Shown here one piece after another: positions 36,496 through 63,415 of a stretch of 64,000 bases of DNA (position 1 is its first letter; each line of letters begins with the position of its first letter). The notes beneath the pieces are model-generated. The model made no database searches and was not told the DNA's origin. It was given only the letters and a program-made list of their open reading frames with translations. Made by a program: the position numbers and the translations under genes. The stretch comes from Bradyrhizobium diazoefficiens (GTDB lineage Bacteria > Pseudomonadota > Alphaproteobacteria > Rhizobiales > Xanthobacteraceae): contig NZ_CP067041.1 in NCBI RefSeq assembly GCF_016599855.1, positions 2,232,001 through 2,296,000 of the forward strand, written 5' to 3'.

Positions 36496-36540
36496 GTCCA
36501 TTGCTCCCGCCAAAGGCAGAGGTTCATTGCCTCACCTCGA

Positions 36541-36604
36541 GCAGGAGTCATCAGCCCACTACGGTCGATCGACCGCCGGGCAGTTGTCGGGGGACTCCAT
36601 CCCC
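36541..36604 (-). ncRNA. fluoride riboswitch aptamer (crcB motif)
   Basis: Minus strand begins GGGGATGGAGTCCCCC and ends GGGCTGATGACTCCTGC. These are the conserved fluoride-aptamer ends: GATGGAGTxCxCC and CTGATGACTCCT, in which GGAGTC pairs with GACTCC and the outer GGGG pairs with CCCC. The bases in between (TGCCCGGCGGTCGATCGACC) form the internal helix. A terminator and the MFS-crcB-crcB-DUF190 operon follow, giving strong functional support. Confidence 0.88.
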
Positions 36605-36616
36605 ATCTGTATGGTC

Positions 36617-50046: not shown

Positions 50047-51825
50047 TTACCCCAACAACACCGCATCCGCCGCTGCAACGGATCCCGCGCTCTCCGTCAC
50101 CGTGCGCTCGAGTGCGCCGGCTTGCACGGTGATGTTCTCGGCGAAGAAGCGCGCGAGCGAGACGTAGCGCGCGGCGTCGGTGTTGCCGTCGGCCTTGGCA
50201 GCGAGCGCCTCCGAGGCCAGCAGGCAGCCGCCGAGCGTGGCGCCGAACTGCTGCAAATACGGCGTGGCGCCGGCAAGGGCCTCGTTCGGCGCCGACGTGA
50301 CGCGCTCCAACAGCCATTTGCTGGTGCGTGTCAGCGCCTCCAGCGCTTCGCGCAATTTCACACCCGTGGTGCCAAAGCCGGGATCGTTGGAGGCTTCGAC
50401 TTGGCTGACGGTCGCGGAGAGCTCGTCGAGCAGCGCCCACACCGCAGCACCGCCGTTCGCCGCAAGCTTGCGCGTGACAAGGTCGATTGCCTGGATGCCG
50501 TTGGTGCCCTCATAGATCGTGGTGATGCGAGCGTCGCGATAATGCTGCGCAGCGCCGGTCTCCTCGATGAAGCCCATGCCGCCGTGCACCTGCACGCCGA
50601 GATAGGCGACCTCGTTGCCGATGTCGGTGGAATAGGCTTTTGCCATCGGCGTCAGCAGCGCGGCGCGCGCGGCGGCATCGGCCCGCACGCTGGGATCCCC
50701 GGCGCGCATCGAAACGTCCAGTGCGACGGCGGTGGCGTAGCAAATGGTGCGCGCCGCCGCCGTCTGCGCGCGCATCCGCATCAGCATGCGCTTGACGTCG
50801 GGATGCACGAAAATCGCGTCCGAGCCGTCGCCTGTCTTGCCGATTGCGCGGCCCTGCTTGCGTTCCTGCGCATAGGCCAGCGCCTGCTGATAGGCGCGGT
50901 CGGCAACGCCGACACCCTCCAGGCCGACGCCGAGGCGGGCCTGGTTCATCATCGTGAACATGCAGCGCATGCCCTGATTCTCTTCGCCGATCAGGAAGCC
51001 GATCGCACCGCCATGGTCGCCCATGGTCATGGTGCAGGTTGGGGAGGCGTGCATGCCGAGCTTGTGCTCGACGCCGGAAGCAATGATGTCGTTGCGCGCG
51101 CCGAGGGAGCCATCGGCATTGACCATGAACTTGGGAACAAGAAAGAGCGAGATCCCTTTGGTGCCGGCCGGCGCATCCGGAAGGCGCGCAAGCACGAAAT
51201 GCACGATGTTGTCGGTCATGTCGTGCTCGCCGTAGGTGATGAAGGTCTTCGTCCCCTTGATGCGATAGGTGCCGTCGGCCTGCTTTTCGGCGCGGGTGCG
51301 CAGCGCACCGACGTCGGAGCCGGCCTGCGGCTCGGTGAGCTGCATCGTGCCGGTCCACTCGCCGGAAACGAGCTTTTCGAGATAGATCGTCTTCAGCTCA
51401 TCGCTACCATGCGCATGGAGCGCCTCGATCGCGGACGCCGTCAGCAGCGGGCAGAGGCCGAAGGCGACGTTGGAGGCGCTCCAGATCTCGGTGCAGGCCG
51501 CGTTGATCGCGAGCGGCAGGCCCTGGCCGCCGAAATCCTCCGGTCCGGACACCGCGTTCCAGCCGCCCTCGGTCCAGCGCTTGTAGGCATCCGGCCAGCC
51601 CGGCGCGGTCGTGACCTTGCCGTCGGCAAGCTTGATGCCGTGCTCGTCGCCGATCTTGTTCAGCGGCGCCAGCACGTCGGTTGCGAACTTGCCGGCTTCC
51701 TCCAGCACGGCGCTCGCGATGTCCGCGTCGAAATCGCCGTAATGGCCGGCTTCCACGGCTGCCTTGAGGCCGGCGCCATGGTTGAGCGACAAGAGCATGT
51801 CAGAGATCGGCGCGCGGTAGGTCAT
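50047..51825 (-). CDS. acyl-CoA dehydrogenase (FadE/DmdC-like)
   Basis: 592 residues, the long bacterial acyl-CoA dehydrogenase type: N-terminal helical domain, FAD segment MQLTEPQAGSDVGALRTR, KGTKTFITYGEHDMTDNIVH and catalytic Glu in ITTIYEGTNGIQAIDL. The C-terminal extra domain (about 460-590) is that seen in 3-methylmercaptopropionyl-CoA dehydrogenase relatives. It dehydrogenates a medium or branched acyl-CoA; chain length is not readable. It ends before the MFS gene and is transcribed towards it. Confidence 0.92.
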   Translation of the reverse strand: MTYRAPISDMLLSLNHGAGLKAAVEAGHYGDFDADIASAVLEEAGKFATDVLAPLNKIGDEHGIKLADGKVTTAPGWPDAYKRWTEGGWNAVSGPEDFGGQGLPLAINAACTEIWSASNVAFGLCPLLTASAIEALHAHGSDELKTIYLEKLVSGEWTGTMQLTEPQAGSDVGALRTRAEKQADGTYRIKGTKTFITYGEHDMTDNIVHFVLARLPDAPAGTKGISLFLVPKFMVNADGSLGARNDIIASGVEHKLGMHASPTCTMTMGDHGGAIGFLIGEENQGMRCMFTMMNQARLGVGLEGVGVADRAYQQALAYAQERKQGRAIGKTGDGSDAIFVHPDVKRMLMRMRAQTAAARTICYATAVALDVSMRAGDPSVRADAAARAALLTPMAKAYSTDIGNEVAYLGVQVHGGMGFIEETGAAQHYRDARITTIYEGTNGIQAIDLVTRKLAANGGAAVWALLDELSATVSQVEASNDPGFGTTGVKLREALEALTRTSKWLLERVTSAPNEALAGATPYLQQFGATLGGCLLASEALAAKADGNTDAARYVSLARFFAENITVQAGALERTVTESAGSVAAADAVLLG

Positions 51826-52070
51826 GGCTCACTCCCCGTGGACAAAGCTTGGCGACGTATTCCCATGAAACGGGCGGGGTCTCAATGGCCGGGAACGGAG
51901 CGAACGGTCCGGGGTCGGGCTTATAAGGAGTGTGGCCAGGCCGGCCCCCCGGGGCCTGTGGTATTTTGCTCCTCCAGGCGGTTGAAATGCCTCGCCGCTC
52001 CCTATAGACCGGCTGCGACCAAAAGGAATCTGCGGTAGCCAGTTCTTCCGCCGTTTCTCCAGTCGCCTGA
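51826..52070. other. intergenic before tRNA-Gln
   Basis: 245 bases with no credible gene, holding the upstream region of the acyl-CoA dehydrogenase gene and the tRNA promoter region. Nothing further identified. Confidence 0.4.
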
Positions 52071-52145
52071 TGGGGCGTAGCCAAGCGGTAAGGCAGCGGA
52101 TTTTGATTCCGCCATTCGGAGGTTCGATCCCTCCCGCCCCAGCCA
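52071..52145 (+). tRNA. tRNA-Gln (anticodon TTG)
   Basis: Seven-base acceptor stem TGGGGCG/CGCCCCA, anticodon stem GCGGA/TCCGC with loop TTTTGAT and anticodon TTG, a T arm with GGTTCGATCC, and an encoded CCA end. Its 3' half is repeated at 59211-59276, which marks it as an integration target. Confidence 0.95.
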
Positions 52146-52165
52146 GCAATTAAGCTGCTGAGTTC
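52099..52165 (+). repeat. attL-like direct repeat (3' end of tRNA-Gln)
   Basis: The last part of the tRNA gene and about 20 bases beyond, including the identical 25-base core at 52123-52147 and AAGCTGCTGAGTTC. The matching copy is at 59211-59276. Together they frame an island of about 7.1 kb. Confidence 0.85.
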
Positions 52166-52461
52166 GCTATGAAGCAGGAGTGATGTCGTCGCTCCCTGGA
52201 TCTGACCGCTGGGAAACTCTACTCTCTTCTGCTTCGGTCTCCGCATTCGACTACAACGTCCGCACGAGCCTCGCCGGTTGAACGCGCCTCGGCCGCGCGT
52301 CTCCTGCGAAACGGCAGGTCTCTTGCCAAAATTATCAGGCTTGATTCTGACGGCAGGCAACGCAAATCTCAGGACCTCACAGCAACTTCGCCCCGGACGT
52401 CTCGTTGACGATAGCTGAGGGCAGGTGCGCTGGCGATGCAGCCAGTGAAAGGAGGATCCCC
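52146..52461. other. island left-end intergenic region
   Basis: 316 bases after the tRNA. It contains the second half of the att repeat and no credible gene. It should hold the promoter for the DUF5132 gene; I see no recognised operator. Confidence 0.4.
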
Positions 52462-52755
52462 ATGGCTTTTTTCGAGGACATCTTCAAGGGTGGTAATATT
52501 GTCACTGGGCTGGCCATAGGTATCGGCGCGGGAGTCGTGGCGCCGGCACTTATGCCCGTCCTCAGGCCGATCGCAAAAACGGTCATTAAGGCCGGGCTCG
52601 TCGCTTATGATCAAGGTCGGGTCGCATTGGCAGAGCTCAATGAGCAAACCGGCGACGTGCTGGCTGAGGCTCGGTCTGAGCTTGCCGAACAAGCCGAGCA
52701 AGAGGAAAAATCGAAAAGACCGAGAAAAGCGGAAACTGCTCACCAGGGCACGTAG
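52462..52755 (+). CDS. DUF5132 membrane protein (island gene 1)
   Basis: 97 residues starting MAFFEDIFKGGNIVTGLAIG behind a perfect AGGAGG (52450-52455). One glycine-rich hydrophobic helix (about 10-37: IGIGAGVVAPALMPVLRPIA) is followed by an amphipathic region and a Glu/Lys-rich tail (EQTGDVLAEARSELAEQAEQ). This is the DUF5132 pattern, commonly beside HMA-type P-type ATPases. It directly precedes the island ATPase gene, 96 bases apart in the same direction, so it is likely an accessory membrane subunit or regulator. Confidence 0.82.
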   Translation: MAFFEDIFKGGNIVTGLAIGIGAGVVAPALMPVLRPIAKTVIKAGLVAYDQGRVALAELNEQTGDVLAEARSELAEQAEQEEKSKRPRKAETAHQGT

Positions 52756-52851
52756 CTTTCAAACTAAATTAAGCTCGGCCAAATTGCGTGCAGCGATTTG
52801 ATTGCGGCGCAGTGGGGTTGTGTCACTCGGCAAGCTGCGGGTCCGAGGACG

Positions 52852-55800
52852 ATGAGTCTTGTTGCTCCATCAAACAAAAGGGCGATAGTTCCGCTGTCGT
52901 CGCGGAACCCACAAGCCCAAATACCCATCTCGATCGTGCCGCTGCACACGGCCGTGGCCGGACGAGTTCGGCTGAAGATCGAAGGCATGCGCGGCGCGCC
53001 GGCAATTGCGAGCCTGCTGGAACGAGGATTCACAGGGATGCCTGGCATCCATGATGTCTCGGCCAACGCCCTCACTGGCAACATTCTCATCCACTACGAG
53101 GACTCGGTCTCGATCGATCAGCTCGTCGAACGGATAAGCGGACTGCTCCTGGGCGACATCACACCCACCGTAGACGATCCGGCCGAGCTCCCGTGGCATA
53201 CAATTGAGACGGGAGCCATCGCGTCCGAACTCGACACCTCCTGTTCGGATGGCCTATCGAGCACGCGAGTATCGGAACGACTTGCTCAGGGGCTTGGTAA
53301 TTCGATCCCGCTGCTGCATCAGCGCTCGGAACTCAGCATTTTTCTCGATCAATTCCAGAGCATGCCAGTGGCACTCTTGGCCGGCGTCGCCGTGGTTTCA
53401 CTCGTGACCGGGACGTTGCTTGAGGCCGGGGCGATCATGGCTGTCGTGGCGTTCAACGCCGCTATCGGGTTTACAACTGAAAATCAGGCTGAGCAGACCA
53501 TCCGGAGCCTCGGAGCCCCCGCCTCGCTGACCGCGCGCGTGGTGCGCGACGGATCAGAGATGGATGTAGGCGCCGACCTGCTCGTCCCTGGCGATCTCGT
53601 CCTTCTCCGGCGCGGCACCGTTGTCCCCGCCGACGGCAGACTCGTAAGCGCCCGCGCGCTCACTATCAGCGAGGCTGCTCTCACTGGCGAGAGCTTGCCG
53701 GTCGCAAAATCAGTCGAAACCGTGCCTCACAGGGCGGCGCTCGCCGATCGAATGAACATGGTCCATCGGGGGACCATCGTGACAGGCGGGAGTGGAACGT
53801 TTGTCGTCGTGGCGACCGGGGCGAGAACCCAGCTCGGACGCATCCAGCGGCTTGTCGGCGCAACCAACACACCCGAAACTCCGATGCAACGACATCTCAG
53901 CGAGCTCGGAGAACAACTCGTCTGGGCCACACTGGCGGCAAGCGCTGCGGTATTCGGTGTAGGTTGGCTGCGTGGGCTGGCGGTCCTCCAGCTGGTACGT
54001 TCATCGCTATCGGTAGCGGTCGCGGCTGTTCCGGAAGGGCTGCCGATGGTTGCCACGACGACCCTCGCCCTTGGCGTCGAGGAGATGCGGCGGCAAGGAA
54101 TTCTGGTCCGACGGCTCGAAGCACTGGAGACGCTGGCCTCCGTCGATGTCGTTTGCTTCGACAAAACGGGCACGCTGACCCACGGCTCCATGTCATTGGG
54201 AGTCGTTGCTGTCGGTGACCGCGTCTGCGGTCGACAGGAGAACGGCCTGGTGGACCAGAACGGGCTGGTTGCCCGACCGGAGCAGGACCGCCGTCTTCGC
54301 ATGCTGCTGTTGGTCGGCGCTCTTTGCAGCGAGACCGAGGTAGAGGAGCGCGACGGGCAAATGCAGCTCAGCGGCTCAGCAACTGAAATCGCGCTCGTTC
54401 AGGCAGCACTCGATCACGACATTGACGTGAGCGAGCTGCGGCGCCGCTACGTAAGGCGGTCGATTCAGCATCGCACCGAGGCCTACAGGTTCATGGCGAC
54501 GACGCATGCTGACGAAGCTCGCGTCTTGATCGCGGTGAAGGGCAGCCCGGGCGAGGTGTTGGCACGTTGCGCGTTTGAAGCATTGCCTGACGGTACTCGG
54601 CAAATTCTCACCGCGAGACGGCGCGCTCAGATCGAAGCTCAAAATGCCAAGATGGCTGAGCAGGCACTTCGGGTGCTGGGAATGGCGTACCGTGAATTAC
54701 AGGTGCCTGGTGCCGATCTTGAGGCAGGGGAGCTCCACATAGAAGAACTGATATGGAGCGGTCTTGTCGGTCTTGCCGATCCGGTGCGGTCCGGCCTTCC
54801 CGCGCTGATGCAGAAGCTGCATCACGCTGGCATCCAGACCATCATGCTGACTGGCGATCAGAGTACGACGGCGCGCGCAGTGGCGGAACGAATTGGCCTT
54901 AGTTCAGATGGTCAGGTCAAGATCATCGATACGGCAGACCTTGACCACGTAGCGCCTCTCGAGCTCGCCGCCAAGGCGCGCGAGGCGCATGCCTTCGCAC
55001 GAATCAGTCCCGGGCAGAAGCTTCAGATCGTGCGTGCCCTTCAGGAGGCGGGGTCTGTGGTGGCGATGATCGGGGATGGCATCAATGATAGCCCGGCGCT
55101 GCGTGCGGCTAACGTTGGGATGGCTATGGGACGAAACGGAGATGCAGCAGCAAGAGAAGTCGCCGACATCTTTTTTGCGAATGACGATCTTGCGTCGTTG
55201 CCGCTCGCCATCGAGCGCGGCCGTGGCACTTACACCAGTATCCGCAATGCGGTTCACTACATCATCAGCAGCAACACGAGCGAGATCCTGCTGATGCTGG
55301 CGGGGGCCGCTGCCGGCTTTGGTGAGATGCTCTCGCCAATTCAGCTGCTATGGATCAATCTCATCTCCGATGTCCTTCCCGCGATCGGTCTCGCTATGGA
55401 GCCTATCGATCCCGACGTGATGGAGCGCGGACCGCGCGCCGCCGATGAACCGATAATCCGATCCGACCAATTCTCCCGCCTCGGCAGCGAAGCCGCCGTG
55501 CTCACGGCAAGCGCGTTCGGCACGGCTGTCTTCGGTGCAATGCGCCACGGCTTTAAATCGCCCGAAGGGAGAACAATGGCTTTTGGCAGTCTGGCCGTGG
55601 GCCAACTTCTGCACACTCTTAATTATCGCTCGTCTAAGCCAAGCAAATTCAGGCCAGCTCAGCTCTGGGCGGAGTCACGTTTGGTGCAGATCATTTCCGG
55701 CTCGGTCGCCGCGCAAATCGCAGCTATGCTTGTGCCGGGCGTGCGAAGCGCGCTTAACGTTGCACCGCTCGGCTTGCTGGATGCCGGTGCCATGATTGCG

Positions 55801-55992
55801 GGCGGAGTATTGCCCAGCGCAATAGCGCAGATGCGTAGCTCTGAGCTGAACCGGTTGCACTTCCGTAGGCCCGACATCGAGGGTCGTTCGGAGACCTTAT
55901 GCGAAGGCGCTAAACGACCGGACTCGCAACAGGCCGGCGCTATGTCGCCGCCTATTCCGAAGGTGCAACGAGGAGCGCGTGGCGACCCATAG
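52852..55992 (+). CDS. P-type cation ATPase with N-terminal HMA_2-like domain (island gene 2)
   Basis: 1046 residues. An N-terminal HMA_2-like domain (about 30-98, GRVRLKIEG, GIHDVSANALTGNILIHYED) lacks the CxxC metal site. Then comes the P-type core: TGES in ALTGESLPVA, PEGLP at 394-398, the phosphorylated D437 in CFDKTGTLTHG, GDGIND at 741-746. The transport helices carry N808 and E811 (SSNTSE) and N836 and D840 (WINLISDVLP). These match calcium-pump-type (P2) ligands, not the CPC of heavy-metal (P1B) pumps. It probably pumps Ca2+ or Mn2+. A shadowing start at 52798 (TTG) is unlikely; GAGGAC precedes ATG 52852. Confidence 0.93.
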   Translation: MSLVAPSNKRAIVPLSSRNPQAQIPISIVPLHTAVAGRVRLKIEGMRGAPAIASLLERGFTGMPGIHDVSANALTGNILIHYEDSVSIDQLVERISGLLLGDITPTVDDPAELPWHTIETGAIASELDTSCSDGLSSTRVSERLAQGLGNSIPLLHQRSELSIFLDQFQSMPVALLAGVAVVSLVTGTLLEAGAIMAVVAFNAAIGFTTENQAEQTIRSLGAPASLTARVVRDGSEMDVGADLLVPGDLVLLRRGTVVPADGRLVSARALTISEAALTGESLPVAKSVETVPHRAALADRMNMVHRGTIVTGGSGTFVVVATGARTQLGRIQRLVGATNTPETPMQRHLSELGEQLVWATLAASAAVFGVGWLRGLAVLQLVRSSLSVAVAAVPEGLPMVATTTLALGVEEMRRQGILVRRLEALETLASVDVVCFDKTGTLTHGSMSLGVVAVGDRVCGRQENGLVDQNGLVARPEQDRRLRMLLLVGALCSETEVEERDGQMQLSGSATEIALVQAALDHDIDVSELRRRYVRRSIQHRTEAYRFMATTHADEARVLIAVKGSPGEVLARCAFEALPDGTRQILTARRRAQIEAQNAKMAEQALRVLGMAYRELQVPGADLEAGELHIEELIWSGLVGLADPVRSGLPALMQKLHHAGIQTIMLTGDQSTTARAVAERIGLSSDGQVKIIDTADLDHVAPLELAAKAREAHAFARISPGQKLQIVRALQEAGSVVAMIGDGINDSPALRAANVGMAMGRNGDAAAREVADIFFANDDLASLPLAIERGRGTYTSIRNAVHYIISSNTSEILLMLAGAAAGFGEMLSPIQLLWINLISDVLPAIGLAMEPIDPDVMERGPRAADEPIIRSDQFSRLGSEAAVLTASAFGTAVFGAMRHGFKSPEGRTMAFGSLAVGQLLHTLNYRSSKPSKFRPAQLWAESRLVQIISGSVAAQIAAMLVPGVRSALNVAPLGLLDAGAMIAGGVLPSAIAQMRSSELNRLHFRRPDIEGRSETLCEGAKRPDSQQAGAMSPPIPKVQRGARGDP

Positions 55993-56440
55993 CGCGTCGT
56001 TGAGCCTCATGCCTTGCAGCTCGAACGATGGCGTCGATGACCCATTCAACTAATTGTACACCGACCTGCTTGGTGATGACCGCCACAATCAGCTTGAGTG
56101 CCCCCGAGGCGAGAGTGAGTGTGGGCAGCAGGCAGTCAATTCCATCGTTCGGCTGCGCCATAGGGGCCGGACAACCGCTCGTCGGCAATGCGCCTTTTGT
56201 TTCGAGCATTTGCAATCCGAGAAACCGGCGGTGTTGTGCCGTCAGGTCGAATCCTTTCCGACACACGATGATTACGCCAGCCGTGAGGGGATTTGAGTGG
56301 ACGCGGACAACATCGGGGTGCTCGATGAGAACCCGCTCAAGGGCGGCGAAATAAGCCTGCTGCCGTTGTCGCTGCGGTATCTTTATTCGAATGCGCGTCG
56401 GTGTGCGATGGACAACAAAGGCCCGGGTTTGTGCGTGCAT
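55952..56440 (-). CDS. HMA_2-like membrane-associated protein A (island gene 3)
   Basis: 162 residues. The N-terminal part (10-60: TRIRIKIPQRQRQQAYFAAL then HPDVVRVHSNPLTAGVIIVC) has the HMA_2 ferredoxin-like pattern. A hydrophobic helix (about 105-135: LTLASGALKLIVAVITKQVG) follows, with a basic tail. There is no CxxC. Its 3' end overlaps the convergent ATPase gene by 41 bases. AAGGA lies ten bases before ATG 56440. Probably a partner of the ATPase, by shared domain and position. Confidence 0.78.
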   Translation of the reverse strand: MHAQTRAFVVHRTPTRIRIKIPQRQRQQAYFAALERVLIEHPDVVRVHSNPLTAGVIIVCRKGFDLTAQHRRFLGLQMLETKGALPTSGCPAPMAQPNDGIDCLLPTLTLASGALKLIVAVITKQVGVQLVEWVIDAIVRAARHEAQRRAMGRHALLVAPSE

Positions 56441-56622
56441 GATCCGCAGTCCTTAACCAGCGTTGGCTCGCCACGCTGATGGCCCGGACACTGCACCCGA
56501 TTTGACGAAGCTAATGTGACACTAAGTCTGTCTTTTTCATCGTTCCCGCGGTTCTCCCCAAGTGGGAGCCTGGTCTGTGCCAATGGAAGCGCGCCTGGAT
56601 ACCGAACGTCCGGCAATCCTAA

Positions 56623-57234
56623 CTAGCCGGTCTGCTGATCGCCCGAGACGCTCGGGGGTGGCACCCCCGAGTCGTTGGATGCGGTCGCGCCGCGAGCAAC
56701 TGAAGCCAGGTGACGCGTGATCAGGGAGTAAAACAAGAGCGAGGAGGCCGACCCGAGCAACTGGCCCCTTAGCACTTGAACAATGCCCAGCAGGACAAAT
56801 CCCGCTGCGATCTCTGGACGGCCGAGAATGCGCTGCGCGCCATATGCGTTCCAGAGATTCTCAGCAGCATTGCCGGTCAGCTGGCCCCGTGCGACTTGGA
56901 GTAGTGCCAATCCGCTCAATCCCGTGGCCGCTGTATCGCGCAATCCGGAATGGGGCGGTCGGCGAGTGGATGGAGCAGGAGCCTTTTTGGGGTCCTCTGG
57001 TCCGATTTCGAAAAGCCCTTGTTCGGTGGCCGCTGCGGCAATCGCCTGCGCCGATCCAGAGTGATGAATAATGATGCTTCCGGTGAGGGGGATCGCATTG
57101 AGTCCTGCGATACCGGGAAGCTTCGAGAGCGCCTGGACTATGTCATGGAAGAACGAGACGTCCCCGCGCCGAGCTGGAATTCGAAGGCGCAGCCGTCCCG
57201 GAATCTGATGCTGGATGATGGCAATTGGGGTCAT
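56623..57234 (-). CDS. HMA_2-like membrane protein B (island gene 4)
   Basis: 203 residues. An N-terminal HMA_2-like domain (GRLRLRIPARRGDVSFFHDI, then GIAGLNAIPLTGSIIIHHSG, about 10-60) is followed by a Pro-rich linker and two hydrophobic helices. These carry an internal repeat: ALLQVARGQLTGNA and GIVQVLRGQLLGSA. The repeat suggests a helical hairpin in the membrane. It is divergent from the DUF445 gene. GGAGG is eleven bases before ATG 57234. A related domain is seen in the ATPase and in protein A, so three HMA_2 domains occur in this island. Confidence 0.8.
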   Translation of the reverse strand: MTPIAIIQHQIPGRLRLRIPARRGDVSFFHDIVQALSKLPGIAGLNAIPLTGSIIIHHSGSAQAIAAAATEQGLFEIGPEDPKKAPAPSTRRPPHSGLRDTAATGLSGLALLQVARGQLTGNAAENLWNAYGAQRILGRPEIAAGFVLLGIVQVLRGQLLGSASSLLFYSLITRHLASVARGATASNDSGVPPPSVSGDQQTG

Positions 57235-57337
57235 CTCGACACGCGCCTCCACTCGGTTCGATCGCGTCAGGGTGCAGCTCAAGAATGCCGATCATACATG
57301 CAGCACGTAACGAAGGCAGCACCGAAGCGAGAGCCAA

Positions 57338-58627
57338 ATGTCTCCAGAGTACGCACCGGCATCGCCGCGCAATCCACTCCCATTGTTCACAAGCGAATCC
57401 GACGGGGCGGCACGTACCCGGTTAAGACGAAATCGGATCGTTGCCAGTACCATGCTCGCCGGTATGGGAGGTATATTCGCCTTGACACGCTTGGTTCCAG
57501 AGCCCGGTTTTGCGACGCTGCTCATCCAATCCGGTGCGGAAGCGGGCATGGTGGGTGGTATCGCCGATTGGTTCGCCGTGACCGCGCTCTTTCGCCACCC
57601 GCTGGGTCTGCCCGTTCCGCATACCGCGATCATTCCCAAGAACAAGGACAGGATTGGCCGCACGATCGGGCATTTCATCGAACGCAATTTTCTAACGCCG
57701 GATGTACTTCTGCCGAAGCTGCGCCAAATGCGTGTTGGGGCACGCTTTGCGGCTTGGCTCGCGGCGCCAAGCACTGCGCCCCTGATCGCACACTCGATCA
57801 CGGCAGTTCTGCCCTATCTCATCCACTCGCTACGCAACCCGGATTTTCATGAGTTCTTGCAGCGGATCTTGAGCGACCAGCTTCGTCAGGCGGATTTCGC
57901 GCCCATGATTGCACGCGGCCTTCGTATTCTTACGGCGAGCGACGAAGCAAATGCTCTGTTCGAACGTATCAGCGAGATCGCGAGCGACCGGCTTGAGAAG
58001 AACCGCGACCAGATCGAAAAGCTTGTCGCCGCGCGCAGCCGCTGGTGGATCCCGAAGGCTATCGATCGCCGGATTGCGACTGCCATTATCAACGGTATCA
58101 CCGAGTTGCTCAGCGGATTGTCTCGGCCGGACAGCGAAGCCTCCGCGAAGTTTCGCGAGGCACTCGCCTCGACAATCGACGACATGCTCAATTCACCGGA
58201 GCAGCGGGAAAAAATAAACGAGGGCGTGAGGCGTCTGCTGGCTCAGCCCGAGGCGCTGGCTTGGGTCAGATCGGTTTGGGACGAGCTCTGCCAGGCGACG
58301 CTCGACGACTTGGCGCAACCATCATCGCGCCTGCGACGAAGTCTTGAAAAGCCCATTTCGATTGTAGCTGAGGCGCTGGCGACTGACACTGTGATGCAGC
58401 GGCACATCGATGAAGTGATGGAGCACTTGGCTGATTCCGTCATCGCGTGGCGCAGCGAGATCGGCTCTTTCTTCGCGGAGGTCGTGCGAAACTGGGATAC
58501 GGCTACCCTTTCCGATCGCCTTGAACTCGTTGTGGGAAGCGACCTCCAATATATTCGCATGAACGGTACCATCGTCGGAGCTTGTACAGGCTGCCTCATA
58601 TTCACCGTCGCCTGGCTTTTTGGGTAG
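57338..58627 (+). CDS. DUF445 membrane protein (island gene 5)
   Basis: 429 residues: a hydrophobic N-terminal helix (about 33-55, STMLAGMGGIFALTRLV), the conserved GMVGGIADWFAVTALFRHPLG and NKDRIGRTIGHFIERNFLTP of DUF445 (YjiN-like), a long helical coiled region, and a C-terminal helix (GTIVGACTGCLIFTVAWLFG). The family is an inner-membrane scaffold of unknown function. It is divergent from HMA_2 protein B and the last large gene of the island. Confidence 0.88.
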   Translation: MSPEYAPASPRNPLPLFTSESDGAARTRLRRNRIVASTMLAGMGGIFALTRLVPEPGFATLLIQSGAEAGMVGGIADWFAVTALFRHPLGLPVPHTAIIPKNKDRIGRTIGHFIERNFLTPDVLLPKLRQMRVGARFAAWLAAPSTAPLIAHSITAVLPYLIHSLRNPDFHEFLQRILSDQLRQADFAPMIARGLRILTASDEANALFERISEIASDRLEKNRDQIEKLVAARSRWWIPKAIDRRIATAIINGITELLSGLSRPDSEASAKFREALASTIDDMLNSPEQREKINEGVRRLLAQPEALAWVRSVWDELCQATLDDLAQPSSRLRRSLEKPISIVAEALATDTVMQRHIDEVMEHLADSVIAWRSEIGSFFAEVVRNWDTATLSDRLELVVGSDLQYIRMNGTIVGACTGCLIFTVAWLFG

Positions 58628-58759
58628 GCGCTCTATCGCCTCGAATCGGATGCTTCGTCCAATTCGGTCGCTGGAACGAGCATTTCGAGTGGGTTGATGG
58701 CGTGCTCTCAGCGCGTGCGAGTCGCACAAGGATTGGCGAATCCACGCACTGAGACGTCC

Positions 58760-58951
58760 CTAACCTCGAATGCCTTTAATCGACGGCTGTATCGTCAGGC
58801 GATAGGCGACCAGCGCGTTGCCGTCAAATTTCTCCAAGATCTCATGGCAGGCAGGGCAGCGGTATTCGCCGGTGGTGCCGGGTCCCAACGGCAATTCAAG
58901 ACGTCGAAAGCCCGCCCCGCACTCCGGACACGTCACGTCGCTCCTTTTCAT
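58760..58951 (-). CDS. small zinc-ribbon protein
   Basis: 63 residues with two CxxC pairs: C8-x2-C11 and C32-x2-C35, the pattern of a zinc ribbon (CPECGAGFRRLELP ... YRCPACHEILEKF). Either ATG 58951 or GTG 58936 (AAGGAG with CGAC spacer) could be the start. It lies at the right end of the island, on the minus strand. Function unknown. Confidence 0.75.
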   Translation of the reverse strand: MKRSDVTCPECGAGFRRLELPLGPGTTGEYRCPACHEILEKFDGNALVAYRLTIQPSIKGIRG

Positions 58952-59210
58952 GCGTCACCCGTAGTGTCCCATTGGCGCAACTTTAACACAGGATGGGGCG
59001 GGACTTCGAATATACTGAGGTTTACTTCACCGGTCGCGGCGGCTTCGAATGCGAATTATGACGGGATATGATCTTCGATGACCGGGCTATTCAGGCGCGC
59101 AAGCTTCTCGTAGTTCAGAGGCGATCCCGGGAGAGCCGCTTCTTATTTGGAAATGCATGCTAAGCAATCATATTTCCAACTACGCTCTGAAATCGTTGAA
59201 TAACCAAACA
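58952..59210. other. island right-end intergenic region
   Basis: 259 bases between the zinc-ribbon gene and the second att-like repeat. No integrase remnant or credible gene was found. Confidence 0.4.
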
Positions 59211-59276
59211 GATTTTGATTCCGCTATTCGCGGATTCGATCCCTCCCGCCCCAGCCAGCGTCAAGCTGCTGAGTTC
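59211..59276 (+). repeat. attR-like direct repeat (partial tRNA-Gln copy)
   Basis: Second copy of the tRNA-Gln 3' end: GATTTTGATTCCGC then a few substitutions, an identical 25-base core at 59235-59259, and AAGCTGCTGAGTTC shared with the first copy. The 5' half of the tRNA is absent, so it is not a functional tRNA gene. Confidence 0.88.
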
Positions 59277-59746
59277 ACGACCTAAACAGCTCTACCCTCG
59301 CAAAATTCCTGGGCGCGTTTGGAAATAGAGCTTGTGAAGCTCGCTGCAGAACCGAACTAAACCGCTTTGTGTGTCACGCAGTCCGTTGGCTTATCTCTGT
59401 GGAGTTCATTCAAGCATATTCCCTGGAGACTGGTTCGGGGCAGGTTCGTTACGTTCCCATCGTAGAATAGGATATTGCGGTGAGCAAATCGGGGGCCAAT
59501 AGGCGCAAGACATCCCCTTTGGTCCCGCGCCTTCGCGGGACGACCCAGCCGGCTTTCAGCTTCCGCTGATCCAGGCAGATCATTATTGTACAACAGGGGG
59601 CGGGAAAAAATTGCAACGAAGCAGGGGGGCGCCTGCGTCCAGAGCGCCAGATTTACCGGTAGCCAGATAAGTCGAAAGCGAAACCAGCGAGAGGTCCACT
59701 TTGGGGCGTCATCAACGCCAATCCGCTTCTGGTCCGGCGTCGGTTC
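59277..59746. other. non-coding stretch after island
   Basis: 470 bases with only short frames lacking ribosome-binding sites. Less GC-rich than the chromosome backbone. No recognised element. Confidence 0.4.
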
Positions 59747-59950
59747 CTAGTGCCTAGGGTCTTCGGCGCCGTTTGCGCCTGTCGAGGCCAGCACACGCTG
59801 GAGACGTTCAGCGCGCTCTTTCGTCAGATTCTCAGCTAGATCGATCCCGATCGCCGCCGGGCCTTTTCTTTCTCGGTCGTACACCATCCAACCCTTGCCG
59901 CCCATTCGAATGAAAAATCTGTTCAGCGACAGCGTTCGGTCGGTCACCAC
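59747..59950 (-). CDS. small conserved-type protein of unknown function
   Basis: 67 residues, with RFFIRMGGKGWMVYDRERKG, GPAAIGIDLAENLTKERAER and a polar tail. The sequence looks like a compact folded protein found in Bradyrhizobium islands, with an aromatic-rich first half and a helix in the second. GTG 59950 has GAGGAG upstream at suitable spacing. It has no signal or membrane helix. Function unknown. Confidence 0.6.
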   Translation of the reverse strand: MVTDRTLSLNRFFIRMGGKGWMVYDRERKGPAAIGIDLAENLTKERAERLQRVLASTGANGAEDPRH

Positions 59951-60441
59951 AGGGCTCCTCGTCGTGGGCTCGGGAAGCGAACCCTATTCCGAGCTGGCTC
60001 AGGCTAGCATTTGCATATGTGAATCGGACCGGGAAAATTCGGCAGTTTCCTCTCGAATGCGGCGATCCTCAAGAATGGGATATTTCACGGGTCGTCACCG
60101 TCTGCAGCTTGCTCCAACTTCAGAGGTCTGATTGGACAAAATTGCTGCAGCCTGCTCATGCGTTGTTGCGCGACAACTGCCCCTTCGCATCGTGAGTTGA
60201 GCTCGACTCCAGACCAGCGATCCGGGGTGTGCAAGGTGCTCGAAACTATCCTGTGGTGCGTCGGTGGCTCACGGCACACGATCGAAAATCTTCCCTTGCT
60301 TCATACAAGGGAGATCCATCGACGCTCCCCACGAACCAATATGATTGCGCGGAGCCACAGGAAGTATTTCGAACGAGGTTAATCAGAGCGACTTGGCATG
60401 CCGGTGCCTGGCACGGTGCCGCCTCGATGAAAGGTTATAGT
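59951..60441. other. non-coding stretch
   Basis: 491 bases with no credible gene. AT-richer than the backbone; short frames of poor quality only. Confidence 0.4.
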
Positions 60442-60876
60442 TCACGTCAGTGAACCGTGCGGGTTCACAACTGTGTACCCTCTCAATGAACGCGCGTGTA
60501 TCCTTGTTGCGTGTCCACCTGAGTTGGCGTCGTATGCCATCCAAACGTCGCTCCCGATATGCTGCTCCAGGATGAAGACGTGCCCGCGTCTTGCTGCGAC
60601 CATTCCTGGTGCCGGCGACGTACGCGGAAATCGCAGCCAGTTCGCCGCGAGATTCAATTCCGGCACGATGCGACCAAACAAACGCAGGGCGACCGCACAA
60701 CCGCAAAATGCGGAGGGGCATCCCTGGGGCCGGCCGCCGACGATCCGATCGCTTACAGGAGTATCAAGCGCCGTAATAGTCTTGATGGCAGCGACGGTGA
60801 GTTGTCTTGAACGATGTGTCTGCAATGAGTTTCGCTTGCTCGAGGTTTGCGAGTAGTACGAGAAGTCGCATGGCAT
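60442..60876 (-). pseudogene. decayed or diverged secreted Bradyrhizobium protein
   Basis: The frame's C-terminal half (IVGGRPQGCPSAFCGCAVAL through LAANWLRFPRTSPAPGMVAA and RRGHVFILEQHIGSDVWMAYDANSGGHATRIHARSLRGYTVVNP) has the pattern of a conserved exported protein family in Bradyrhizobium with several Cys. The N-terminal half, with the expected signal peptide, is degraded (LTVAAIKTITALDTPVSD carries polar substitutions), and no start has a ribosome-binding site. I call it a probable pseudogene or a strongly diverged copy. Confidence 0.45.
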
Positions 60877-61202
60877 GGTGATGTTGCATTCGGAGGCGCT
60901 TTCTATTCGGTATGGTCGTGCTTCCGAATTGAAGCAGGTGATTACGATGAAACCGCACGCAGAAATAACTTGCTTGAACATCGCAGGCTCCGGATTTAGG
61001 GATCCTGCCCCAAGCAACGAAGGACCAACAACAGATTGGCTGAAATCGGTCAAAAGAGCGGCCTGACGCTGGTGGAGGGGCCGACTATACTTCTGGGGTA
61101 ACTCCAAGCGTCTCGAACGTTGAAGAAGGTCTCTTGCTTGCAAATGGGCCGCTGCTTGCAAATGGGCCGCTGCTTGCAAATGGGCCGCGGACGCGACCCG
61201 CT
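60877..61202. other. intergenic with 18-base tandem repeat
   Basis: 326 bases with no credible gene. It holds the tandem array at 61135-61187. Confidence 0.4.
61135..61187. repeat. 18-base tandem repeat, nearly three copies
   Basis: Unit CTGCTTGCAAATGGGCCG, two perfect copies and one missing its first base. It is non-coding; no CRISPR-like spacers are present. Confidence 0.8.
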
Positions 61203-61406
61203 TCACGTGTTGATCATGGCCACGTACTCCATATGAAGAGTAATTGGACCCTTCGATCCGTCCAAAATCACGCGGAGGCTCTTGGGATAGTACCCGGCTC
61301 CAACCACGGTCCCGGTCTTTCCGGCTAAGCGAGGGCCGGCTGCCGGCTTCACCTGAATTCGTGAGCCCGGCGGAAATTTGGGCTCGGTTTGGGCCGATCC
61401 TGACAT
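61203..61406 (-). CDS. small KOW-like/SH3-barrel protein
   Basis: 67 residues starting MSGSAQTEPKFPPGSRIQVK. The middle, AGKTGTVVGAGYYPKSLRVI, has the KOW/SH3-like hairpin seen in ribosomal and RNA-binding proteins, followed by LDGSKGPITLHMEYVAMINT. GAGGA precedes the ATG by five bases. It is short but well-formed. Function unknown; an RNA or protein-binding role is inferred from the fold pattern. Confidence 0.65.
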   Translation of the reverse strand: MSGSAQTEPKFPPGSRIQVKPAAGPRLAGKTGTVVGAGYYPKSLRVILDGSKGPITLHMEYVAMINT

Positions 61407-62065
61407 GACGTCCTCGGCAGCGAATGAGCTAATTCTACGCAAATAACCGACAATGCGTGGCACAGTGAACGAACGGGTGCATTGGACGAGGCATATGCGA
61501 TTGCGCGCGCCAGGTGAAAAGAGGTCTCCAACAACGGTCCTGAAGATGCAAGGCAATGCGACTAGATAAAATTCGTTGCATTGGCAACTCGCAATTGCCG
61601 CAGCAACGAACTCGACTGCAGTGCTAGAATACCGATTTCAAACCAATGCCAATCCGAGATGAAGGTCTCGAGCCGACCTGTACTGGACGACGGAAACGCT
61701 TCGATGAGAACATCCGTCATCAGGAGTAATCCGCAGGCATTAATCAACCCGGTGTGGTGCCCGTCTCGGCATTGACCAATTTTGTCGGCGTTGTGCCAAG
61801 TTTCTAATGATCTTTTCAGCCTCGATCAGCCTGCATATCGTTGAATCCTCTTCTGAAACAGCGTTACCCACAGGTTTTGCGACAAAGCGCTGGCGAGTTG
61901 TCGTGCCAACTTTGGGCACAACAATCCCTTGGTTCGGCCTAACGAAGCGGAGATTCCTGCCTCAAACGTAAACATACGTTCACCGCCGTGGGACGCACGA
62001 TCGGTTGTCGGCGCTCAGACCCGAATTGGGTCACTGGGGGTTTCAACACGCAGAGGGGAATAGCA
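61407..62065. other. non-coding stretch before the secreted-enzyme gene
   Basis: 659 bases. An open frame on the minus strand (61562-61747) has no start signal or recognisable product. The last 100 bases should hold the promoter of the gene at 62066. No operator recognised. Confidence 0.4.
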
Positions 62066-63415
62066 TTGACTACCTTACACTACGCCGCGGGTGGCGGTCT
62101 CGACTCGCAAGGTAACTTCACAGCGGGTGCAGATGGCTTCAATCTCGCAGACATCGAGTATGCCGACCAGGCGAATGCACTGCCGAGCGGCGTGCAGGGG
62201 CTGGCCTGGCTCGATCAATATCATGGCGTGACTCAGGACTTCATCAACCAGGTGACGCCCTTCCTCAACAATCCGAAAGTGTTCGGCTTCTATCTCGTCG
62301 ATGAGCCCGACCCGAGCGGGCAGTCGGGCCCGCAGGCCAGCGCGGCTGACTTGATGGCGGAATCCGACTGGATCCACCAGCATGATCCCGGCGCCAAGAC
62401 TTTCACCGTCCTGGACAACATGGGCACGTCGGACAATCCGAGTTACGACAATACCTATAACACCGCGAACACCCACATCGACTACTTCGGTCTGGATTGG
62501 TATCCAGTGTGGTCGGATCGTTCGAACGTCGATCTCAGCACCATCGACAAGTACGTCGCTGCTGCGGAGCATGCAGGCATTCCGCTCGACTCGATCGTTC
62601 CGGTGTACCAGGCGTTCGGAGGAGGCGGCTGGACTACCGAAACCGGTAGCCAGGTCGTGATGCCGACTGCCGAGCAAGCGCAGGCAATGATCAATCACTG
62701 GGCGGACCTCGTTCCCAACCCGGCGTTCGACTATGCCTACGCGTGGGGTTCGCAGAATGGCGACACCGCGCTTGCGGACTCGCCGGAATTGCAGAAGGTG
62801 TTCCTCGCGCACAACACGAGCGAGAGCACATCGACCTCCGTCCCTCCGGCCGCTAGTGCTCCGATCGCCGAAACGCCGACCGGCACGCCGGTTTCCGATC
62901 ATAGCGGAAGTTCGGCCACCGACGGCAGCACGTCTCCAATTGCCGATGCAGCCGGAAGCACTGCGACGGACGGCAGCACGACGCCTGTTGCCGATGCCGG
63001 CGGAAGCACCGTTGGCACAACCGGAAGCTCCACGCCGACGACCAGCCCGACTGAAGGCACGACACCGGTTTCCGCTTCGGACGGAACGACGGGCACCTCG
63101 ACCGGCGGTACCATTGATACCGGTCACTGGAATGGTCATGATCACTGGTCGGCCGGCTCATCCGGGTCGACGATTGCGGACACCGGCGGGCACAGCAACC
63201 ACGGCGGGAGCTTCGATTTCTCGCAGTTGATCAATGGCGCCACGTCGCCTTCGTCCGGAGATCATGGCGGGTGGCGAGGCCTAACCACGATGTCGTCATC
63301 CGCGACGTCGGATCCGACCACTGACCAGACGGCTACGTGGGACTCGGGATCTTTCGTCGGACATCTGGCTGACTTCATGACTCACCATAACGACCATCAC
63401 GCCTGGCACTCGTGA
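62066..63415 (+). CDS. glycoside hydrolase-like protein with low-complexity His-rich tail, probable type I secretion substrate
   Basis: 449 residues from TTG 62066 (AGAGGGG seven bases upstream). The N-terminal 250 residues resemble a TIM-barrel glycoside hydrolase: KVFGFYLVDEPDPSG with a likely acid Glu80, THIDYFGLDWYPVWS and FDYAYAWGSQNGD. A low-complexity Ser/Thr/Gly/Asp linker (about 255-360, ATDGSTSPIADAAGST repeated) follows, and a His-rich end (HHNDHHAWHS). It lacks a Sec signal. It is followed by a type I secretion ABC transporter gene, which suggests export by that system. Confidence 0.8.
   Translation: MTTLHYAAGGGLDSQGNFTAGADGFNLADIEYADQANALPSGVQGLAWLDQYHGVTQDFINQVTPFLNNPKVFGFYLVDEPDPSGQSGPQASAADLMAESDWIHQHDPGAKTFTVLDNMGTSDNPSYDNTYNTANTHIDYFGLDWYPVWSDRSNVDLSTIDKYVAAAEHAGIPLDSIVPVYQAFGGGGWTTETGSQVVMPTAEQAQAMINHWADLVPNPAFDYAYAWGSQNGDTALADSPELQKVFLAHNTSESTSTSVPPAASAPIAETPTGTPVSDHSGSSATDGSTSPIADAAGSTATDGSTTPVADAGGSTVGTTGSSTPTTSPTEGTTPVSASDGTTGTSTGGTIDTGHWNGHDHWSAGSSGSTIADTGGHSNHGGSFDFSQLINGATSPSSGDHGGWRGLTTMSSSATSDPTTDQTATWDSGSFVGHLADFMTHHNDHHAWHS

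Follow-up and report, generated by a model that had tools for sequence, protein, structure and literature searches.

Mycobacterial PacL proteins have been described as organising P-ATPases into membrane platforms; according to the published work, K9, G17 and G20 of PacL are required for functional effluxosomes, the loss of its EA repeats loses the pump, and the model favoured by the authors has these repeats contact the N-terminal domain of the pump (PMC9374683, PMC13043812). Another described assembly is the ferrosome, which Rhodopseudomonas palustris CGA009 makes from six fez genes (PMC12016538). Here, we analysed 64,000 nucleotides of Bradyrhizobium diazoefficiens (contig NZ_CP067041.1, positions 2,232,001 to 2,296,000; the whole stretch is hereafter called the window), which carry a 7.1 kb island bounded by a tRNA-Gln gene and a copy of the 3′ end of this tRNA. 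The island encodes, in this order, DUF5132 (+), an HMA_2/P2-type ATPase (+), an HMA_2-like protein (−), an HMA_2 protein (−), DUF445 (+) and a zinc ribbon (−). These six genes had been listed in a first-pass annotation, and all are present where it placed them (Table 1).

By analogy with PacL, we propose, with a probability of roughly 0.42, that five of the genes could form a cation-pump module accompanied by the zinc ribbon as a passenger, in which DUF5132 would be a PacL-like scaffold gathering HMA_2-tagged pumps into a membrane platform and the pump itself would be exchangeable. In 5.39 million openly available papers, we found no mention of DUF5132; nor did we find a paper pairing any two of PF19991, the HMA2 domain and P-type ATPases.

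A gene set shared by several loci and two pump classes

DUF5132 (E 6.4e-8), the pump (E1-E2_ATPase, Cation_ATPase_N, Cation_ATPase_C and HMA_2, the last with E 4.2e-8), the stand-alone HMA_2 protein P0004 (E 7e-8) and DUF445 (E 4.4e-96) all match their Pfam families above the curated cut-offs. The suggestion that three proteins share an HMA_2-like domain holds: two are recognised by Pfam, and the third, P0003 (no Pfam match at E 0.1), is supported by its match to the neighbouring P0004 at E 2e-8, by R16, R18 and K20, which are invariant in the 44 aligned members of its family (the query and 43 of 50 relatives), and by a predicted N-terminal domain with the strand-helix-strand-strand-helix order of an HMA domain. 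The grouping is beyond chance because the only DUF5132 match and the only two Pfam HMA_2 matches of the genome all lie inside the island.

The same families recur around other P2-type pumps. We compared ten loci with an HMA_2-tagged P2 pump (the window, L023, L079, L135, L103, L104, L081, L083, L087 and L088). Nine of them have DUF5132 together with a separate HMA_2 protein, the DUF5132 of L083 scoring slightly under the Pfam cut-off; DUF445 is found in five and a full-length relative of P0003 in four. A genome of another genus (G137) has the same order and orientation, with identities of 59% for the pump, 50% for HMA_2, 62% for DUF445, 36% for the HMA_2-like protein and 63% for DUF5132. All five genes are also present on a megaplasmid of Microvirga sp. 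VF16 (pump 54%, DUF445 63%), where DUF5132 adjoins the pump and occurs twice, and DUF445 and the HMA_2 gene are in opposite orientation. The pump, HMA_2, DUF5132 and DUF445 are found together in another family as well (G336). In the more distant P2 clusters L083, L087 and L103, an S-adenosylmethionine synthetase gene follows the pump, and a polyhydroxybutyrate (PHB) polymerase (PhaC) gene lies near the pump cluster in L083 and L087.

The first-pass annotation held that the island genes belong together and proposed looking for DUF5132, HMA_2 and DUF445 within 10 kb of each other. Among 117 genomes of the genus, DUF5132 occurs in 11 and HMA_2 in the same 11. DUF445 is present in 113, but the genomes with an additional copy above the cut-off are precisely these 11 and none of the other 106. 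The extra copy always lies 3.9–4.9 kb from DUF5132, and the three families are clustered in every one of the 11. This association is inflated by shared ancestry, as the set adjoins one and the same cytochrome P450-like gene in seven of the nine genomes with a P1B-type pump (see below). In wider samples, DUF5132 was detected in 3 of 289 genomes of the class, all among the six with HMA_2, in 2 of 299 genomes of the phylum, both among the ten with HMA_2, and in 8 of 198 genomes of the family. HMA_2 is matched at Pfam level in five of these eight, HMA_2-type frames were recognised by motif in a further two (G122, G166), and G191 has a weak match to P0004 (L082). Plasmid pOM4 of Mesorhizobium onobrychidis (L137) carries a shortened HMA_2-pump frame running into the tail of an HMA_2 protein.

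The zinc ribbon is the part for which the proposed grouping did not stand. Among the ten P2 loci, only the two Bradyrhizobium islands have it next to the set, a 34% relative in L026 being several kb from that cluster, and no Pfam family was found above the cut-off among the 25 of its 41 matches that were listed. It looks like an island passenger, outside the five-gene module.

In all nine other genomes of the genus that have DUF5132, this protein, HMA_2, an EcsC-family gene and DUF445 accompany a P1B-type pump with a DYGTGIR motif. The same combination was recovered in 19 of 19 named loci (18 from Bradyrhizobium and one from Methylocapsa, at least eight of them in these same nine genomes), as well as in G243 and G272. 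The DUF445 match is partial in L031 and L040 (B. viridifuturi SEMIA 690), where the gene is split into two frames (G076:C29:101795-102873), and the DUF445 frame of L034 is shorter than the others (375 amino acids); of the 18 loci in which DUF445 has a frame, 10 were aligned together with the window (A4). In a midpoint-rooted tree with narrow sampling, the DUF445s of P2 sets (n = 5) and P1B sets (n = 7) cluster together, separately from the four housekeeping copies of Bradyrhizobium that were included. Since DUF5132, HMA_2 and DUF445 also accompany a P1B-type pump, the kit would take different pumps. Polyphosphate kinase 2 (PPK2) genes occur near the P1B-type sets of L026 and L080, and a phasin gene near that of L026, a storage context that may be due to chance.

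These comparisons bear on a simpler explanation, in which the island would encode a plain Ca2+/Mn2+ efflux pump and the other genes would travel along without acting with it. Unrelated cargo is common on islands, the zinc ribbon looks like cargo and half of the P2 loci lack DUF445. Nevertheless, G137 and Microvirga have kept all five genes at 35–69% protein identity, and the accessory families are met again around a pump of another class; we consider mere co-travelling unlikely.

The pump and its HMA_2 domain

The island pump is a P2-type ATPase. It contains PEGLP, DKTGT and the M4–M6 ion ligands of P2A Ca2+-ATPases, and its closest solved structures are LMCA1 of Listeria (6zhf), then SPCA1 (7yag) and SERCA. 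In an alignment of the query with the 120 listed of 7772 matches, which include the protein of the window itself (P0012), the Glu of PEGLP is conserved in 121/121 sequences and N826, E829, N854 and D858 in 120/121 each. Using the SERCA residue numbering of the ion site as we assume it to be, with E908 presumably the acidic M8 ligand, the residues equivalent to E309, N768, E771, N796 and D800 are kept in at least 120/121 pumps, and the T799 position is Ser in 112. These motifs suggest Ca2+ or Mn2+ as a first guess for the transported ion, with Fe2+ as a further candidate; the pump would use ATP to export a divalent cation from the cytosol, Ca2+ or Mn2+ being the likeliest.

The canonical metal-binding site of HMA domains, CxxC, is absent from all 110 HMA_2 regions of the pumps, 43 of which have a Cys, and from all 37 domain-like stretches collected from the loci, 10 of which have a Cys. 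The latter were harvested by pattern; two look false (L079 10729–11616 and the stretch in frame 4937–7075 of L078) and other true domains were missed. With CxxC missing and R-x-R kept, thiol metal binding is unlikely; judged by its residues, the HMA_2 domain of the island has lost the thiol metal site.

Of the first-pass idea of a self-contained cation-transport or metal-homeostasis module, cation transport fits, with Ca2+ or Mn2+ likelier than Zn or Cu, whereas the name HMA_2 lends no support to heavy-metal binding. That the island would confer heavy-metal (Zn, Cu, Cd) resistance is accordingly improbable. The domain name and the conserved M8 His of the pump would speak for such a function, but HMA_2 lacks CxxC, the pump is not of the P1B type, no riboswitch was found by Rfam within 51500–61500, and no known metal regulator occurs among the family matches listed for the six proteins.

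DUF5132 as a candidate scaffold

DUF5132 has the layout of PacL, that is, one membrane helix followed by an acidic part, encoded by a gene adjoining that of a P-ATPase. In our alignment (the query and 22 of the 120 listed proteins, out of 262 matches), an invariant Lys (K9) precedes the single hydrophobic stretch, invariant G20 and G22 lie inside it, and the acidic stretch comes next (net charge −5 over residues 50–78). The tails are variable, and no conserved His/Asp motif comparable to the C-terminal metal-binding motif of PacL was found in the 23 aligned sequences.

If the analogy holds, the single membrane helix of DUF5132 would self-associate and its acidic helix would dock HMA_2 domains, so that HMA_2-tagged pumps and stand-alone HMA_2 proteins may collect in one membrane platform. 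DUF445 would be a frequent, non-obligatory membrane partner, in agreement with its distribution: the idea that it is part of the module is supported by its recurrence in five P2 loci and in P1B sets, but it is present in just half of the HMA_2-P2 pump loci.

Several observations weigh against this platform model. The only Pfam match of the DUF5132 protein at E 0.1 is DUF5132 itself, with none to DUF1490 or DUF6110, and the link to PacL is therefore by layout only. The net charge of the pump HMA_2 region is −1, as against +9 and +3 for the stand-alone HMA_2 domains; a near-neutral region weakens a simple docking by charge onto the acidic DUF5132. The partners can also be found apart. HMA_2 occurs without DUF5132 in 12 of the 17 family genomes, 3 of the 6 class genomes and 8 of the 10 phylum genomes that have HMA_2, so that the phyletic pattern is one-sided: DUF5132 genomes mostly carry HMA_2, but HMA_2 is often present without DUF5132. 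On plasmids of Sinorhizobium chiapasense, S. fredii NXT3 and CCBAU 05631 (L136, L138, L139), DUF5132 has no pump within the 9–10 kb fetched on each side. The pump of L088 (a 7.5-kb contig) stands alone, with neither DUF5132 nor a separate HMA_2 protein, and the stretches fetched for L081, L083, L087, L088 and L104 showed no DUF445. Finally, the acidic M8 ligand of P2A Ca2+-ATPases is missing from the pump: the E908 place, aligned by eye, is occupied by Gln in 120/121 sequences (one gap), with a His three residues on in 120/121, and the pump ion may therefore not be Ca2+. This Q-x-x-H motif (window 55603–55614, +; pump residues 936–939) is present in 9/9 further HMA_2-tagged P2 pumps; two closely alike P2 pumps without HMA_2 (L082, L083) have Glu at the M8 place, with QLLH elsewhere in both. 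Q-x-x-H is a possible selectivity signature.

Relationship to ferrosomes

By gene content, the island fails as a ferrosome locus on pump class and cytochrome. Its pump is P2-type, FezB being, as we take it, a P1B-6 ATPase, and no DUF4405 (FezC-type) cytochrome is among the Pfam matches listed for the six proteins. We compared it with a presumptive fez cluster of Rhodopseudomonas (L084, L085; the fez label is inferred), which has six genes ending in a P1B pump with a DYSCALK motif and, in L084, adjoins a FUR-family gene. HMA_2 scores 27.6 bits on this pump, below the cut-off; the cluster further encodes a stand-alone HMA_2 protein (36.4 bits), a weak one (13.1 bits) and three small proteins. 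DUF5132 aligned to its 121-amino-acid protein with an hhalign probability of 10. The P1B-type pump of DUF5132 sets and the presumptive FezB share 33% identity over 703 residues, a stretch that takes in HMA_2.

An alternative to a surface efflux platform would be a ferrosome-like intracellular membrane compartment, into which the P2 pump would load Ca2+ (or Mn2+ or Fe2+). The presence of HMA_2 on the pump and on separate proteins in the presumptive fez cluster, the precedent of R. palustris CGA009 (PMC12016538), the relatedness of the P1B pumps of DUF5132 sets to FezB and the storage genes near some relatives (PPK2, phasin and PHB polymerase) are in line with this possibility. Conversely, the six island proteins include no P1B pump, DUF4405 cytochrome or FUR protein, and the resemblance depends on the label given to L084 and L085. 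Such a compartment seems unlikely, if somewhat less so than co-travelling genes around a plain pump.

More speculatively still, a general bacterial kit of DUF5132, HMA_2 adaptors and often DUF445 might assemble membrane compartments or platforms around any HMA_2-tagged P-type ATPase. Ferrosomes would then form a branch in which a P1B pump supplies the iron, and the kit with the Ca2+-type P2 pump on its 7-kb tRNA island would provide the host with a calcium- or manganese-loaded ferrosome analogue.

Borders, spread and selection of the island

The tRNA-linked location noted in the first-pass annotation turned out to be stronger than claimed. The two attachment-like repeats are identical at 44/48 positions, lie 7112 bp apart and occur at exactly two sites in the 7.10-Mb one-contig genome (whole-genome search, up to three mismatches). 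When tRNA-Gln and its left flank were searched in 31 genomes (the window's own and 30 relatives), a match was obtained in 29; of the loci fetched, most extending some 1.5 kb beyond this match, none but that of the genome of the window showed island DNA.

Table 1. Features of the island and its borders in the window.
Feature	Position	Strand	Basis
tRNA-Gln (TTG), island integration site	52071..52145	+	ARAGORN, Rfam
Left att-like repeat, 3′ part of tRNA-Gln	52100..52147	+	Repeat comparison, whole-genome search
Small DUF5132 protein with a single hydrophobic stretch (G16xxxG20xG22) followed by an acidic one	52462..52755	+	Pfam PF17195, alignment, hydropathy
P2-type ATPase carrying HMA_2 at its N terminus; open frame from TTG 52798, first ATG 52852	52852..55992	+	Pfam, PDB, conservation
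Stand-alone HMA_2-like protein P0003, without Pfam family; convergent with pump, overlapping its 3′ end by 41 bp	55952..56440	−	Protein comparison, alignment, predicted structure
Stand-alone HMA_2 protein P0004; frame opens at 57282, first ATG 57234	56623..57234	−	Pfam PF19991
DUF445 membrane protein; lineage apart from housekeeping copies tested	57338..58627	+	Pfam PF04286, tree
Small zinc-ribbon protein; apparent passenger, outside recurring set	58760..58951	−	Two CxxC pairs, locus comparison
Right att-like repeat, copy of tRNA-Gln 3′ end	59212..59259	+	Repeat comparison, whole-genome search

The island has been laterally moved. In a sister genome (G116), it is present at 91.4% identity over 6951 bp, with this tRNA and the acyl-CoA dehydrogenase gene as neighbours there too; nothing in the G116 stretch matches the 4.7 kb that follow the island on its right in the window. 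Between the two genomes, the synonymous divergence (dS) of the island genes is 0.10–0.25 and that of the neighbouring acyl-CoA dehydrogenase 0.48, as expected if the island spread after the split of the hosts. The ratio of nonsynonymous to synonymous divergence (dN/dS) is 0.09 for DUF5132, 0.16 for the pump, 0.37 and 0.40 for the HMA_2 proteins and 0.14 for DUF445; selection is weakest on the zinc ribbon (0.50, from 16 changes only).

Extra copies (about 47–52 bp) of the tRNA-Gln 3′ end lie away from the tRNA in G016 (five), G018, G002, G004, G005, G007 and G017, and tRNA-Gln therefore looks like an integration hotspot in the genus. Elsewhere in the window, a fluoride riboswitch aptamer was detected at 36535–36613 (−; 50.7 bits, gathering threshold 34), and a 475-amino-acid frame at 61988–63415 (+) has a repetitive Ser/Thr/Gly-rich tail and no Pfam match at E 0.1.

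Comparison with known systems

Our work gives DUF5132, HMA_2 and DUF445, whose functions are unknown or barely known, a common and testable context in which they are paired with two classes of P-type ATPases. Should the platform model be true, pump clustering as known from mycobacteria would be a more general principle, and the role of HMA_2 would lie in assembly, as a tag, and not in binding metal.

Like other tRNA-borne genomic islands, the Bradyrhizobium island has the tRNA 3′ end duplicated at its far border; it differs in being just 7.1 kb long and in having no integrase among its six genes. The pump shares its catalytic core and most ion-site residues with P2A Ca2+-ATPases (LMCA1, SPCA1/PMR1, SERCA), from which the N-terminal HMA_2 domain, the Gln at the E908 place and the conserved His in M8 set it apart. 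With the presumptive ferrosome clusters it shares the grouping of small proteins and HMA_2-type stretches in one cluster, the latter both within the pump and in proteins of their own; in contrast, its pump is P2 and not P1B, no DUF4405 cytochrome or FUR gene was found among its six genes, and DUF5132 and DUF445 are added. Compared with the effluxosome (PacL1-CtpC of Mycobacterium; DUF1490 and the related DUF6110), DUF5132 belongs to another Pfam family and has no conserved metal-binding tail, the pump is P2 rather than P1B, and HMA_2 proteins and DUF445 are present in addition. Nevertheless, both systems place a small one-helix protein with an acidic or Ala-rich cytoplasmic part beside a P-type ATPase, and the conserved Lys and Gly before and within the membrane helix of PacL are also seen in DUF5132 (PMC9374683, PMC13043812).

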